From Rugalucina vietnamica (lineage: Eukaryota > Mollusca > Bivalvia > Lucinida > Lucinidae): a stretch of 64,000 nt of DNA. Under the pieces are notes generated by a model, which saw nothing but the letters and a program-made list of their open reading frames with translations, was not told the DNA's origin and did no database searches. Location of the stretch: NCBI GenBank assembly GCA_964017185.1, contig OZ024880.1, positions 43,909,071 through 43,973,070 on the forward strand. Direction: 5' to 3'. Below, piece after piece: positions 36,717 to 52,688 of this stretch. Numbering within the stretch: the stretch's first letter is position 1; the number at the start of each line of letters is the position of its first letter. The position numbers were made by a program, and so were the translations under genes.

Positions 36717-39700
36717 GATAGTTCGTCTCTCACTAATGAGAAAGACCATCATTATTTCTTGAATTGTGCTGATGTGTGTTGGTGAGTTCTTTGATGGCTG
36801 ACTAGGCCAATTCTGGCTCTAAACTGTCGATTGCAAGTAGAGCAAGTCAATGTCATAGAGTCTGCTGGTGGCACATTTGTTTTGGCTTTGCGCTCTCTTT
36901 GCTTTCTTTCAGCTTCAAAGATTCTCTTCTTTTCATAGAGAGCTGCTCCTTTGTTGATGAGACCTCGCCACTTTGATCGCTCCTGTGCAGTCTGTTCCCA
37001 GGACCCCATTGGTATTTCGAAATCCTTCAGAGAGGCTTTGAGGGTGTCTTTGTAGCGTTTCTTCTGGCCACCTTGAGAGCGCTTTCCCTCCTGTAGCTCT
37101 CCATAGAAAACTTTCTTTGGAAGTCGCGCATCAGGCATTCTTATAACATGGCCAGTCCATCTTAGCTGTGCTAGCTTTAAGACTGTATGCATGCTTTGCA
37201 TCCCTGCTTTCCTCAGGACCTCTGTGTCTGGAATCTTGTCCTGCCACTTGATTTTTAACAACTTTCTCAAACAGCTTAAGTGGAAATGGTTAAGTCTCTT
37301 TGCATGGCGTTGGTATACTGTCCAGGTCTCACATGCGTACAAGAGGGTTGGCAGTACCACAGCCTTGTAGACTTTCAGCTTGGTGTCAAGCTTGATTCCA
37401 TTTCGCTCCCAGACATTTGCACGGAGTCTTCCGAATGCCACACTAGCTTTTGCAATTCTGGCAGTGATCTCATCATCAATATGCACTGCTCTGGAGAGAG
37501 TGCTTCCCAGGTAGGTGAACTTGTCAACAACTTTCAGTTTTTGCCCATTCACAGTGATGGTTGGTTCATTATATGGTTTTCCGGGGGCTGGTTGGTGTAC
37601 AACCTCTGTCTTTTTTGTGCTGATTGTGAGATCATAGTTATCACATGACTGTGAGACTTGATCCATGGCTCTTTGCATTTTTGCCTCTGTGTTGGCATTC
37701 TTATCCATATCATCTGCATAGAGGAGATCATCTAGCACATCAGTCTGGACCTTAGTTTTGGCTTGCAACCTTCTGAGGTTGAATATGTTGCCATCAAAAC
37801 GGTACCTAATTGGAAAACCAGTGTCACTGTCCTGAAAAGCATCCATAAGCATGGCAGAAAACATCATGCTGAACAGTGTTGGTGCCAGAACACAGCCTTG
37901 TTTGACCCCATTTGTTACTTCAAATGGTTCAGAGAACTCTCCATCATTTTGCACACGTGCCTGCATGCCATCATGAAACTGCCGCACCATAGCTATGAAT
38001 CTGGGTGGACAGCCAAACTTGGCCATGATTTTCCAGAGTCCATCACGACTAACAGTGTCAAAAGCTTTGGTGAGGTCAACAAACGTCATGTATAGATCTA
38101 CATTCTGTTCTTGGCATTTCTCCTGAAGCTGTCTTGCTGTGAAGATCATGTCTATTGTCCCTCTGTCTTTTCTGAATCCACATTGACTTTCTGGGATAAG
38201 TCCCGTCTGATCAAGATGAGCATTCAGACGATTTAACAGAATTTTTGCAAGTATCTTCCCAGCAATTGATAGGAGGGAGATGCCTCTGTGATTGTCACAG
38301 ACTTGAGGATTTCCTTTCCGCTTGTATAGGTGGATTATGGATGCATCCTTAAATTCTTGTGGGATAGCCTCCTTCCTCCACATACAGTGAAACAACTCTG
38401 TCAGTTTCTCTGCCATGGGTAGCCCCCCAGCCTTGTAAACTTCGGCAGGAATTGCATCTGCACCTGGGGCTTTGCCAGATGATAGTTGTTGAACTGCTTT
38501 TCTTGTTTCCGTAACGGTAGGAAATTCATCTAACAGAACATTGCACTCTATCTGTGGAAGTCTGTCGATTGCATCCTGATTGATGCTTGATGGTCGATTA
38601 AGCACACTATTGAAGTGTTCTGCCCACCTTTCCAAGATAGCTTCTTTATCTGTGAGAAGAGTGTTTCCATCTGCACTGAGCAATGTGGTGGCTCCAGAAC
38701 TCTTTGGACCATAAATGGTTTTCAGTGCATCATGAAATTTCTTCATGTCCTTTCTATCCGCAAAAGACTGAATTTCTTCTGTTTTCTTCCTCAGCCAGGA
38801 ATCTTGCATGTCCCTAAGCTTGGTCTGGACTGTCTTACAAATGTTGCTGTAGGCTGCTTTCTTTGATACTGAGCTAGTATCATCTTGATGTGCCTTGAGC
38901 AAACGGTGCTTTTCTTCAAGAAGCCTCTGAATTTCATCATCATTCTCATCAAACCAGTCTTGATGTTTGCGAGATGGATGGCCTAAGGTGCTTGCAGCTG
39001 AAGAAAGAACTGTTTTATGGAAAACTGTCCAGTTTTCTTCGGGGTCCTCTGAACTGAGATTCATTGCATCCAGTTGGTTGCAAATGTCTGTTAAGAAATC
39101 TTGTCTCATGCTGTCTTTATTCAGCTTTGAGACATCCAGTCTCTTAGGAGCTTTCTTGCCTTGAGGTCGCCTCGCAGGCTGTATTCTTAGGTTGAGTTTG
39201 CTGACAACCAGTCTATGATCTGTCCAGCAGTCTGCACCACACATAGTCTTTGTCACTTTAACATCCTGCCTGTCTGTTCTCCGCACTATGACATAGTCTA
39301 TGAGATGCCAGTGTTTGGAACGGGGATGCATCCAGGATGTTTTGTTCCTATTAGGTAGACGGAAGACTGTGTTGGTGATTAGAAGATCATGTTCAGCACA
39401 CTTCCTGAGAAGCAAGAGACCATTGCTGTTGCACTTTCCAACCCCTTCTGGACCTATAACTCCTTCCCAGGTCTGGTGGTCTGTACCCACTCTGGCATTA
39501 AAGTCGCCAAGAAGGATAAGCTTGTCTGTGCAGGGTGTTGCAGAAATAACATTGTCTAGGTCATCATAGAACTTGTCCTTGACCTCATCTGGATTGGTCA
39601 TTGTGGGTGCATAAGCACTGACAATAGTTGCATGTTTATTGCCTGACAGAGGAAGTCTCAATGTCATTAGACGGTCATTAATGCCTTTTGGCAATCCTGA

Positions 39701-40706
39701 CAGCTTACCAACAAGTTCTGTTTTGATGGCAAAGCCAACTCCTGCTTCACGCCTTTCTTCACTTTTGCGTCCACTCCAGAAGAAGGTGTATCCAGCACCA
39801 ACTTCTTTGATCTCCCCAACATCTGCGAACCGAGTCTCACTCAATGCAGCTATCTGTATATCATACCTCCCAAGTTCTCTGCCCACAAGGGCCGTTCTAC
39901 GCTGTGGTCTATCTGACCCAGCACTATCCATTAAAGTGCGCACATTCCATGCGCCAATCCGTAAGGGGATTACTCTAGCTTTTTTCTTTGTATTTCGACC
40001 GCTTAAGGGGATCCCCGCTGATCGCGGTTAACCAGCCAGGGGGTTTGAAGCAGGCAATTGTTTAGGGCACCTTTTCTAGCCCCTTCCCCATGCTACGGGG
40101 GTGAGCAGTGCGGTCCTAAATAGGTCTGCTCAGTCACTCAGCCGCCTGCCGAATTCTGCTTACTGCTTCTCCTCACAGAAAGCGACCATTAGAACCGAGC
40201 CGCCTGTGTGCAGGTCTGCAACTACAGCTCCCAGTGTGTCCTACACCTGCTGCTTCGCCACTCGCCCATCGCCACAGGACTTTGTAGGTATGTGGGTGCA
40301 AGTGTGATGAAATTGTTGTGTATGCAAGTGCTTGTGTGTTGAGAAATAAGATGACATGCGCTATGAAATTGGATTATAGTGAGGAAGAGGTGCGCAACGT
40401 CAACCTCACTCTCTAGTCCTCGCCCAGCTGCGCCCAGAGGCAAGACACAGGTCAAGACGTCTGGAGTTGGGTTTGGATGCAGTGGATGACCGTAACATCT
40501 TTAGTGCCTTGTCACGCTCTGCATGTTCCACAACATGTTGCTGTATCGCTTTCTGAACCGTTGAATCAGATGATTTCTTCCGCTCCATCTACCGAAACAG
40601 TCTTTGCATATCTGGACTAGGCATATCCAGACACACAGGTTTGATTTTGGAGTTTCCTTCTCCTAGATGAATTGCTGGCCACAGCTGAAGAGCTCCATCT
40701 ACCCTT
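36717..40706 (-). mobile_element. Near-complete non-LTR retrotransposon, 3990 bp
   Basis: Bounded by an 11-bp duplication (36706-36716, 40707-40717). Order on the minus strand: about 680 bases of 5' leader (40706-40028), the polyprotein ORF, then a short 3' UTR of about 35 bases ending near ACTATCATT. The leader contains a conserved-looking block (40090-40030, GGGGAAGGGGCTAGAAAAGG on the minus strand). It sits inside the GTTACGGTATGGACAT array and is therefore younger than that array. The intact ORF and near-intact duplication indicate a recent insertion. Confidence 0.85.
36752..39943 (-). CDS. LINE polyprotein: AP endonuclease, reverse transcriptase, C2H2 zinc finger
   Basis: 1063 uninterrupted codons. 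Residues 30-250 form an APE-type endonuclease that nicks target DNA: LSETR (E36), SAYAP, GDFNARVG (146-153), LIDYVIV, TDHR (241-244). Residues about 480-815 are the reverse transcriptase: GKAPGADAIPAEV, DNHRGISLLSIAGKILAK, QCGFRKDRGTIDMIF, FVDLTKAFDT, GVKQGCVLAPTLF, YADD (742-745) with both catalytic aspartates, and FTYLGSTLS. The C-terminus has a C2H2 finger (C1034, C1037, H1050, H1054), probably for nucleic-acid binding. The start given is a GTG; the open frame runs upstream to a stop at about 40028 (IPLRIGAWNVRTL precedes) with no ATG, so the true start is uncertain. All catalytic residues I can check are present, so it may be active. Clade (RTE-like or relatives) not settled. Confidence 0.93.
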   Translation of the reverse strand: MRTLMDSAGSDRPQRRTALVGRELGRYDIQIAALSETRFADVGEIKEVGAGYTFFWSGRKSEERREAGVGFAIKTELVGKLSGLPKGINDRLMTLRLPLSGNKHATIVSAYAPTMTNPDEVKDKFYDDLDNVISATPCTDKLILLGDFNARVGTDHQTWEGVIGPEGVGKCNSNGLLLLRKCAEHDLLITNTVFRLPNRNKTSWMHPRSKHWHLIDYVIVRRTDRQDVKVTKTMCGADCWTDHRLVVSKLNLRIQPARRPQGKKAPKRLDVSKLNKDSMRQDFLTDICNQLDAMNLSSEDPEENWTVFHKTVLSSAASTLGHPSRKHQDWFDENDDEIQRLLEEKHRLLKAHQDDTSSVSKKAAYSNICKTVQTKLRDMQDSWLRKKTEEIQSFADRKDMKKFHDALKTIYGPKSSGATTLLSADGNTLLTDKEAILERWAEHFNSVLNRPSSINQDAIDRLPQIECNVLLDEFPTVTETRKAVQQLSSGKAPGADAIPAEVYKAGGLPMAEKLTELFHCMWRKEAIPQEFKDASIIHLYKRKGNPQVCDNHRGISLLSIAGKILAKILLNRLNAHLDQTGLIPESQCGFRKDRGTIDMIFTARQLQEKCQEQNVDLYMTFVDLTKAFDTVSRDGLWKIMAKFGCPPRFIAMVRQFHDGMQARVQNDGEFSEPFEVTNGVKQGCVLAPTLFSMMFSAMLMDAFQDSDTGFPIRYRFDGNIFNLRRLQAKTKVQTDVLDDLLYADDMDKNANTEAKMQRAMDQVSQSCDNYDLTISTKKTEVVHQPAPGKPYNEPTITVNGQKLKVVDKFTYLGSTLSRAVHIDDEITARIAKASVAFGRLRANVWERNGIKLDTKLKVYKAVVLPTLLYACETWTVYQRHAKRLNHFHLSCLRKLLKIKWQDKIPDTEVLRKAGMQSMHTVLKLAQLRWTGHVIRMPDARLPKKVFYGELQEGKRSQGGQKKRYKDTLKASLKDFEIPMGSWEQTAQERSKWRGLINKGAALYEKKRIFEAERKQRERKAKTNVPPADSMTLTCSTCNRQFRARIGLVSHQRTHQHTSAQFKK

Positions 40707-48071: not shown

Positions 48072-50215
48072 TGCAATGCGACTACTGGTGACTAATTTGC
48101 AAAAAAAGATTAACGATCTACATAACTTTCACGATGCAGTCTCATTGAATGGACATCTATGCATCAATTTCGCAAATAAACTGCCTAATTTTGCAAATAT
48201 ATCTCACAACTGTGGCCCGATAGTAGCGAGACACTCGTGCGACTGTCGCGAGACATTGTGAGAGTGTCTCAAGACGTTCTCACGAATGTAGCTTTGTTTC
48301 TTTTTCACATGTACGACAGGAACAGGACATTCGTGAGAGTGTTTCACGACATTCATACGAATGTTGCTTAGTTTTATTCTCTCGCCAGATAGTCGCAAGT
48401 TGTATGCATATTTTCACAAGACTTTTGCGCGAGTGTTGTACGACATGTATACCAGTGTTACGAAATTGTCACATTTTAAATTTGCCAAAATTTTGTGGCG
48501 ACAGATTCACGACAAAATCAATTAACATAAAATTTTTAAACATGTTTAAAACCTTCGCGACACATGAAAATTCTTGCGGCACTCACACTAACACGGTGGG
48601 TAGCCTTAACGGAATCTACGGGATCAAATCGCCTTTTCCGGCGCCTACGGGATCAGCAACGGAGTCTACGGGAATTTTATTGATTTTTACAAAAGGTTGC
48701 TTTCTTTCCGAGGTAGTTTAACACAAAAATAATCAGGAAAGACATAGAGTAAGTTTTGCACGGGACTTTTAAAAAATCACACAAAATTTTGATCAACATT
48801 GTGATTTAGTGCAGTATGATGCGTTTGCGTGCGTGACAATTTATTTGCTGCGATTGTGGTGTAAAATGAGGGACCGCCCCTAAAATGCATTATGCTGAGC
48901 TTCTATAATCCGGCTTCCTAGTAAGTTCGCCTTTATTTTGAACAGAATGATTCCTAATTCAATTTCTTTATGTATTGACACAATAGTTTGTGGTCAAAAT
49001 AAAAGAATTTGCCCAAACATCTAATCAAAGAAGGACCGGCACCTAGGGGAATCTGGCACCACAGCCTAGGGGATTTTTCCATTATAAGTATATGGAGATT
49101 TGTTTTCAAATGCTAAAGGGCAGCTAACTCCAAACTCCGTTTTCTGCTCTTCTCAAGGGTGGTTTTCCCCTTTTTTGGGTGCGTGTCTTAGTTTACTGTA
49201 GCTATGTCGGTTTGATAGTTAGTATGGGAGAACAAATGAGCGTTGTTGGATCATGATGTTCAGGTGTTCAAGTTTTTTCCTCTTTGGGGCGAAAAGCCAA
49301 AGCATTTTTTTTTCTTTTTTGGGGGGGACCCGGAATGTATAGGACTATATTGTAACTGGAATAGTGGTCTATGGGTACCATAACCGCAAGGATAGCAATC
49401 CTATTATAAATACATTGATAAATACCTTTTTATCGGGAATTGTGGGATTTGCAGGGGTATACTTTTTGCTGAAAAGATCCACATAATGTATATTGTACAG
49501 AAATACAAAAAAATAAGATTGTTTTGTCGCCGTATACCAATGCAAGGTTATAATTGTAATTTTCATTTTGTACACAATTCCCTGAGGATCCGGTGCCAAA
49601 TGATCCCGTTATGGCCGGTGCCTAAAAACGCATGTTTCTTCTGGATCCCGTAGGATCCGTTCCACCACGAAGCCTTTTGAACGATCACTTATTTGTGCTA
49701 TATGCGTCAGATAAAGGACAAGAATGTAGTATTTACCTTTATTTAAGGGGAGTATAAAACAACAGTCTACGTTCTGATCGATTTTCCCGTCTTCGATTGG
49801 TAAAAGCAATAAAATTGAATCTTTAAAGGCCCTTTCTATTAGCCTTTAGAAATGCAGGGTGGAGAAAAGTACCGTTTTTGAACAGGTTCAGTGTCTCGAA
49901 CTGCAGTTTTCTGTACAAAAGTAGTATGCCTGATATGTTCCGGGTCCCGTGAAATAGAATATACAATAATGTTACTTTTTTTTCTAAAAAAAATCTTCCG
50001 CTGAAGTAGTGTTCATTGCCAACTTCATCAAAAGAATTCCCGTAGACTCCGTTGCTGATCCCGTAGGCGCCGGAAAAAGCGATATGATCCCGTAGATTCC
50101 GTTAAGGCTACCCACCGTGACTAATGTTGCTTGAAAGTTCCGTGACTAAATTCACAAAACAGTCGCAAGGAATTCACATGCCATTGAGATACGAGATACT
50201 ATAACTTTACAGGAA
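48072..50215. mobile_element. Family N foldback element split by element M
   Basis: Left end TATCTCACTGCAATGCGACT, interior CGCGAGAC, CTCACGAATGT and TTTTTAAACATGTTTAAAACC. After element M it continues with GTGACTAATGTTGC and ends CATGCCATTGAGATAC. A partial relative is at 52090-52400. Confidence 0.7.
48592..50119. mobile_element. Element M: CACGGTG-ended TIR element with a 5-bp duplication
   Basis: TIRs 48592-48676 and 50035-50119 are 85 bp with two mismatches, starting CACGGTGGGTAGCCTTAACG. Three ACGGGATCA/ACGGGAA blocks, each preceded by TCT or CCT, lie within each TIR. ACTAA at 48587-48591 and 50120-50124 is an exact 5-bp duplication. Terminal CACGGTG resembles the CACRGTG heptamer of RAG recombination signals and Transib TIRs, whose transposases make 5-bp duplications. 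Internal ACGGGATC-related segments recur at 49560-49650. No transposase ORF (longest frame 76 codons, 49369-49599 minus), so non-autonomous. It interrupts the family N element, whose other copy confirms the join. Confidence 0.85.
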
Positions 50216-52089: not shown

Positions 52090-52400
52090 GCAAATGGAAT
52101 CTTACATTCGTACAAGTGTTGCGAAAATTTCGCATTATAAATTTGCCGGAATTTCACAGCGACAGGTTCACTGCACTCTCACGAACGTGTTCTCACTAAC
52201 AAACGGTCTTGTGAAATATTTTGGCGAAAAAATTTGCATAAAATTTTTAAACATGTTTAAAACCTTCTCGACCAGTTCGCGACTAGTTTGCGACACATGA
52301 AAATTCTCACGACACTCGCACGAATGTTGTGCGAAAGTCTGGGACTGACTTTGCAAAACAGTCGCGAGAAATTCGCATGCCAGTGAGATACCAGCTTAAC
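52090..52400. mobile_element. Family N element, partial copy
   Basis: Shares TTTTTAAACATGTTTAAAACC, GCGACACATGAAAATTCT and the end TTCGCATGCCAGTGAGATAC with 48072-50215, and shows the site without element M (CACTCGCACGAATGTTG). Confidence 0.75.
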
Positions 52401-52688
52401 TTATACCATGGGGAGCTAAAAGTGTTTTGCTAAAAAAATAATCTGTTTTTCAAAAGTTTGGAACTGATGGTAATTACGCCCTACTTATTATCATGTAAGT
52501 GAGTGAAAGAGGGGAAACCTGTAGGCAGTGATTTATCTATATTTCATTGGAAATCTTCTCAGCAGACAGTCAATTCTATTATCATTTCCAAAATATCCGT
52601 TGCCAGAGGAAGGATTAAACAGTACACTAGGTTTCTTTCTCAAGATATGAGCGAGTACAAAGAAGTGGAACCGTCCATGTAAATATGT
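52401..52688. other. Unassigned stretch
   Basis: Nothing recognised. Confidence 0.4.

Follow-up and report, generated by a model that had tools for sequence, protein, structure and literature searches.

Element M, a short DNA transposon in the genome of Rugalucina vietnamica, raises the question of which kind of enzyme moved it. It lies in the window, the whole 64-kb stretch of DNA that was analysed (C12:43909071-43973070 of a 1.09-Gb genome in 47 contigs), and was first noticed for its CAC-initial inverted ends and its 5-bp target-site duplication. Transposons with such ends and 5-bp duplications gave rise to the immune recombinase RAG. The original prediction was that M is a non-autonomous element mobilised by a Transib/RAG-like enzyme encoded elsewhere.

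Boundaries and insertion site of element M

The terminal inverted repeats (TIRs) had been described as 85 bp long with two mismatches, which is borne out, and the arms in fact extend to 93 nt each with 96% complementarity. M starts with CACGGTGGG, its termini read CACGGTG...CACCGTG, and reading of the flanks verified that an exact ACTAA directly adjoins both ends. The heptamer CACGGTG is one base apart from CACAGTG, the heptamer of the RAG recombination signal sequence. M was also said to sit inside a copy of a host repeat, family N, of which a relative within the window displays the unoccupied sequence. This too holds: the flanks of M, fused across a single ACTAA, align to 52209-52405 with a score of 173 against 32 for the reversed-sequence control, and an independent repeat finder pairs 48554-48591 with 52287-52324 and 50139-50195 with 52338-52394. 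The features that define the insertion are as follows.

48587..48591, unstranded: ACTAA target-site duplication, left copy
48592..50119, unstranded: element M, a 1528-bp non-autonomous DNA transposon (recognised by its TIRs, its duplicated target, the relative with an empty site and copies across the genome)
48592..48684, plus strand: left TIR of M, beginning CACGGTGGGTAGCC, first 85 bp nearly perfect
50027..50119, minus strand: right TIR of M, ending CCCACCGTG
50120..50124, unstranded: ACTAA target-site duplication, right copy
52209..52405, unstranded: relative of the host repeat (family N) without M, representing the unoccupied site (alignment score 173 vs 32 reversed; repeat finder)

Elsewhere in the window, on the minus strand at 36752-40027, an open frame of 1091 aa with endonuclease and reverse-transcriptase-like parts, identified by eye, apparently belongs to an intact LINE. 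The size of the genome, its retroelements and its RAG1L-RAG2L genes point to an animal; a search with PF14830 (mollusc haemocyanin) gave no hit, and since no control responded either, it carries no information on the phylum.

A dispersed, non-coding family

Searching the host genome with the 93-bp TIR gave at least 41 matches among those listed (259 candidates, 40 scored). The terminal 21 bp of M match the genome 238 times (123 + 115) at up to two mismatches, against 0 + 1 in the control, and a 30-bp pattern from the inner TIR matches 64 + 61 times at up to one mismatch, against 0 + 0. Because these numbers far exceed the controls, the family is not a product of chance, and the 238 end matches, at two ends per copy, place M as a dispersed family on the order of 100 copies, more diverged ones being uncounted. 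Sequence was taken for 30 loci from the TIR search, including the M of the window, for 14 ten-kb stretches, nine of which cover copies already among the 30 loci, and for one 6.2-kb stretch; together these yielded 37 elements, a part of the family.

A consensus built from 21 copies is 1540 bp long, and the copies lie 2-6% away from it. Stop-free stretches in it run to at most 92 aa, a length reached in 37% of shuffles; M thus carries no sign of a gene and is non-coding, in agreement with its description as non-autonomous. TIR positions 1-21 show 0 changes in 441 relative to the consensus and the matching right-end positions 3 in 441, while divergence is 0.9% at TIR positions 22-85, 1.3% in their right-end counterpart and 3-4% over most of the interior. 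Part of this TIR conservation reflects ascertainment, since the copies were found through TIR similarity.

The repeated ACGGGATCA blocks noted in the TIR are real, and their core unit is CTACGGGA. Exact copies of this unit occur seven times in the 64-kb window, where 0.40 are expected, and all lie within M, three per TIR and one in the interior. Near-copies CTAGGGGA, oriented as in the left TIR, stand at consensus positions 452 and 475, where the surrounding block (451-500) diverges less than most of the interior, by 1.5%. The units and near-copies may serve as transposase-binding sites.

48616..48673, plus strand: three CTACGGGA units of the left TIR (48616, 48645, 48666), putative transposase-binding units
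49646..49653, minus strand: interior CTACGGGA unit, oriented as the right TIR
50038..50095, minus strand: three CTACGGGA units of the right TIR (50038, 50059, 50088)

Target-site duplications

Duplication length had been set beforehand as a check that could count against the prediction. Four of the 37 elements were excluded from the tally, namely L006 and L007, which are near-duplicates of each other with the second end absent within the stretch covered, and L008 and L018, whose second end lies beyond the locus; 33 elements with both ends located remained. A length of 5 bp predominates: the duplication is exact in 25/33 copies, two more (L021 and L042) match at 4/5 bases, and six do not have it, with 4 bp in L005, 6 bp in L028, 3 bp only in L032, none in L031 and one degraded end each in L036 and L038. 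When left flanks were paired with the right flanks of other copies, an exact 5-bp match was found in 11/1056 pairings. The exact duplication of L002 lies within an AAT repeat, where the match also holds over 8 bp, and that of L039a is AAAAA. At L040:2851-7467 two M copies stand 21 bp apart, and the pair appears to have moved together as one composite unit, because neither copy has a duplication of its own and the outer ends are both flanked by TTATA; it was entered once, via its outer ends, and entering it as two elements gives 24/34 exact. CACGGTG is present at both ends in 29 of the 31 copies that have two complete ends, the exceptions being the right heptamers of L017 (one substituted base) and L039a (two).

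The 25 exact duplications are 81% A/T, compared with 55% in their flanks. The base preceding the duplication is C in 17/25 (p 1e-7) and the base following it is G in 11/25 (p 0.003); the two combined, a motif noticed post hoc after the data were seen, reach 28/50 with p 5.5e-9, and the next best combination of flank position and base has p 0.011. M insertion sites thus have a common symmetric motif, C[A/T-rich 5-mer]G. In Drosophila, Tables 3 and 4 of PMC3276498 record a 5-bp duplication in 532/533 insertions of the Transib element hopper and 7/7 of transib2, and Table 4 gives the target motif of both as CCANTGG, that is, C[CANTG]G, which has the outer frame C[5]G in common with M sites. Passages of PMC8289069 describe the duplications of ProtoRAG, Transib and RAG as GC-biased, whereas the centre of M targets is A/T-rich; this bias is a tendency and not strictly defining.

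Search for a transposase with M ends

Profile searches of the host genome with RAG1 recovered three pieces at two loci, C9:34097107-34099008 and C11:21950802-21958850, referred to below as the RAG1L-RAG2L (RAGL) loci. The C9 RAG1L protein, used in turn as a genome query, gave no further core match, 48/51 rows lying within the first 209 residues, for the most part in the RING region. The Hztransib core reached only the two RAGL loci (E 3e-4, 0.02) and one noise row at E 4.6. A second Transib bait, which matched Hztransib (6pqn, E 1.4e-130), likewise reached only these loci (E 1.2e-6, 8e-6). Across the genome, a 46-aa Hztransib motif found only the C11 RAGL locus (E 0.076) and PF25538, used as a Transib proxy, only that on C9 (E 0.13); a contig scan with a bacterial Transib bait produced 139 pattern matches, none of which was confirmed. 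Since both Transib baits reached just the RAGL loci, the assembly shows no Transib transposase of ordinary similarity that these baits, run without a positive-control genome, could detect; a very diverged one may be present.

An autonomous partner was sought in the 14 ten-kb stretches, which surround additional or long copies, and in the 6.2-kb stretch. Uninterrupted copies in these 15 stretches are L039a, the first of L040, and L042; the remaining ones are interrupted by inserts or have no second end. Comparison of 15 inserts found mutual similarity limited to one 45-bp match. Stop-free frames of at least 100 aa were surveyed inside the M boundaries in 14 of the 15 stretches, an arbitrary stretch being used for L034 and L035, which have no second end. 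The 38 such frames in interrupted copies contain no recognisable transposase: 36 are without any match at E<=0.01, one scores above the Pfam cut-off as a reverse transcriptase (L038), and one matches DHHC below the threshold. Nor was a transposase recognised, by eye, in ten slices of 150 bp taken from long or unpaired copies; three match the M interior well, one matches repeats elsewhere (with a weak 26-bp match to M) and six match neither. The prediction of a Transib/RAG enzyme encoded elsewhere is partly supported: the ends and the 5-bp stagger agree with it, and no such enzyme with M ends was found by the genome searches or in the copies covered, a part of the family; the expected autonomous copy with a Transib/RAG1-type core did not emerge, as two Transib queries, the RAG1L query and the RAG1 profile led only to RAG1L-RAG2L loci with unlike ends.

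Three M copies contain other TIR elements nested within them, at L036:1408-2452, L037:6818-7579 and L041:6119-7640. Those in L037 and L041 have inverted ends of about 50 bp, and the one in L036 ends in CACTGAAAC/CTCAGTG. A divergent copy at L039:1816-3077, considered as a new family, was rejected as such and is an older M.

Two RAG1L-RAG2L loci in the same genome

The interval C9:34092192-34104836 (L055, L045, L054) is apparently a complete RAG1L-RAG2L transposon. It is bounded by CACATACAAA ends at these two positions, each adjoined by ATTTT, and between them a RAG2L-like and a RAG1L frame converge. The open RAG1L frame is 782 aa long with exon-like frames upstream, and its protein is nearest, among solved structures, to amphioxus ProtoRAG RAG1L (6b40, E 1.4e-194; Pfam RAG1, 1.6e-81). 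The RAG2L-like frame of 501 aa matches kelch repeats and, below the threshold, PHD. On C11 (C11:21950802-21958850 and flanks; L056, L047, L046, L057) a second pair lies between candidate CACTAACAAC ends adjoined by CCGTG and is interrupted by a stop in the RAG1L part and a break in the RAG2L-like frame; its RAG1L is 53-55% identical to that of C9. An equally good end pair with a common 5-mer arose in 1/200 shuffles for C9 and 4/200 for C11, and a rival left end on C11, CACTTGCAAACT, equals the best one in consensus fit, with no matching 5-mer, so the C11 boundary is less certain than that on C9.

Passages of PMC7204232 give the protostome RAGL end consensus as CACTWMCAAACKTYKBB with duplications of 5 bp. 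At either locus the candidate ends fit this consensus at 13/17 and 15/17 positions, against 7/17 for M, which does not have the AAA at positions 8-10 and has only CAC in common with the candidate ends. The RAG1L/RAG2L gene pair is absent from M, and blastn of M against the C9 region and the C11 pieces taken, between which part of that locus is missing, gave no match at E<=0.01. As far as these comparisons reach, the RAGL elements do not look like the obvious source of M.

Discussion

The copies analysed here establish M as a real, dispersed family that is Transib/RAG-like in its ends, its stagger and its symmetric target. Like Transib (Hztransib; hopper/transib2), it has CAC-initial symmetric TIRs with a heptamer resembling the RSS, 5-bp duplications and a C...G frame around the 5-mer; it differs in having no transposase, with none detected in the genome, and in its A/T-rich duplications and its 85-bp TIR with iterated CTACGGGA. 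From the CAC ends, the 5-bp stagger and the symmetric C...G target we infer the class of the enzyme, and M resembles Transib in its behaviour, with no enzyme bearing M ends found; the A/T-rich duplications, at odds with the reported GC bias, count against a plain Transib label. M is a non-autonomous cut-and-paste family, probably moved by a DDE enzyme of the RAG1/Transib type that is now lost, unassembled or too diverged to detect. Such a transposase, supplied in trans, would most likely bind the TIRs of 85 bp, with the iterated CTACGGGA units as possible contact points, cut beside the CAC heptamer and join the ends to the target at a 5-bp stagger, with C[A/T-rich 5-mer]G preferred. Should M be Transib-like, traces of the family ancestral to RAG can persist as about 100 copies without coding capacity, even though the only genes of this kind still detectable in the genome are RAG1L-RAG2L. 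The 25 insertions with exact duplications are a natural sample of target sites (C[W5]G) for comparison with RAG and Transib integration. Section 11 of a survey of mollusc genomes (PMC10294476) reports a single Transib element, found via its transposase, and the titles and abstract openings listed in the literature searches named no non-autonomous Transib family in a mollusc, although one may exist.

That the genome's own RAG1L-RAG2L transposase mobilised M, so that M would be a non-autonomous RAGL element of high copy number and atypical TIRs, is quite unlikely. The two RAGL loci are the only RAG1/Transib-family genes detected, and the frames on C9 are open. Like M, RAGL/ProtoRAG elements begin with CAC and duplicate 5 bp of target, the candidate ends at both loci come with 5-bp matches, and section 6 of PMC7204232 reports non-autonomous RAGL elements in P. 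imbricata. Against this stand the poor fit of M to the CACTWMCAAAC consensus and the failure of M to match the RAGL sequences taken. We accordingly attach only a small probability to the proposition that an invertebrate RAG1L-RAG2L enzyme acts or acted on M ends lacking the A-rich block, in A/T-rich targets; were it true, the M copies would provide a set of substrates, amplified in nature, from which to read the end and target rules of a RAG-like enzyme. The presence of M and RAGL elements in one genome makes cross-recognition directly testable.

It is likewise improbable that M is a member of some other DDE superfamily, perhaps one not yet described, whose duplications are 5 bp long as well, a reading favoured by the want of a transposase with M ends and by duplications unlike reported RAG/Transib targets. 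Passages of PMC2836005 supply a precedent for 5-bp duplications in another superfamily, TDD-4/TDD-5, and give Ginger termini as TGTNR and metazoan Ginger2 duplications as 4 bp, unlike the CACGG ends and 5-bp duplications of M. The CMC group (CACTA/Mirage/Chapaev) resembles M in its CAC-initial ends and has transposase genes in this genome, where its profile gave 16 hits on C3, C4, C5, C9, C11, C15 and C16. CMC duplications are 2-4 bp long, against 5 bp in M. An autonomous copy encoding an unrelated transposase such as CMC had been named as what would tell against the prediction; compared with 104 listed M places, a list that is incomplete for contigs C8-C17, 0/16 hits come closer than 560 kb to any listed M end, the nearest being 564 kb away and one hit's contig having no listed end. 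Among the CMC hits themselves, eight of CACTA type have an identical score and six rows carry a 901-aa frame, and these equal scores and the repeated frame suggest that CMC elements have been recently active in the genome.
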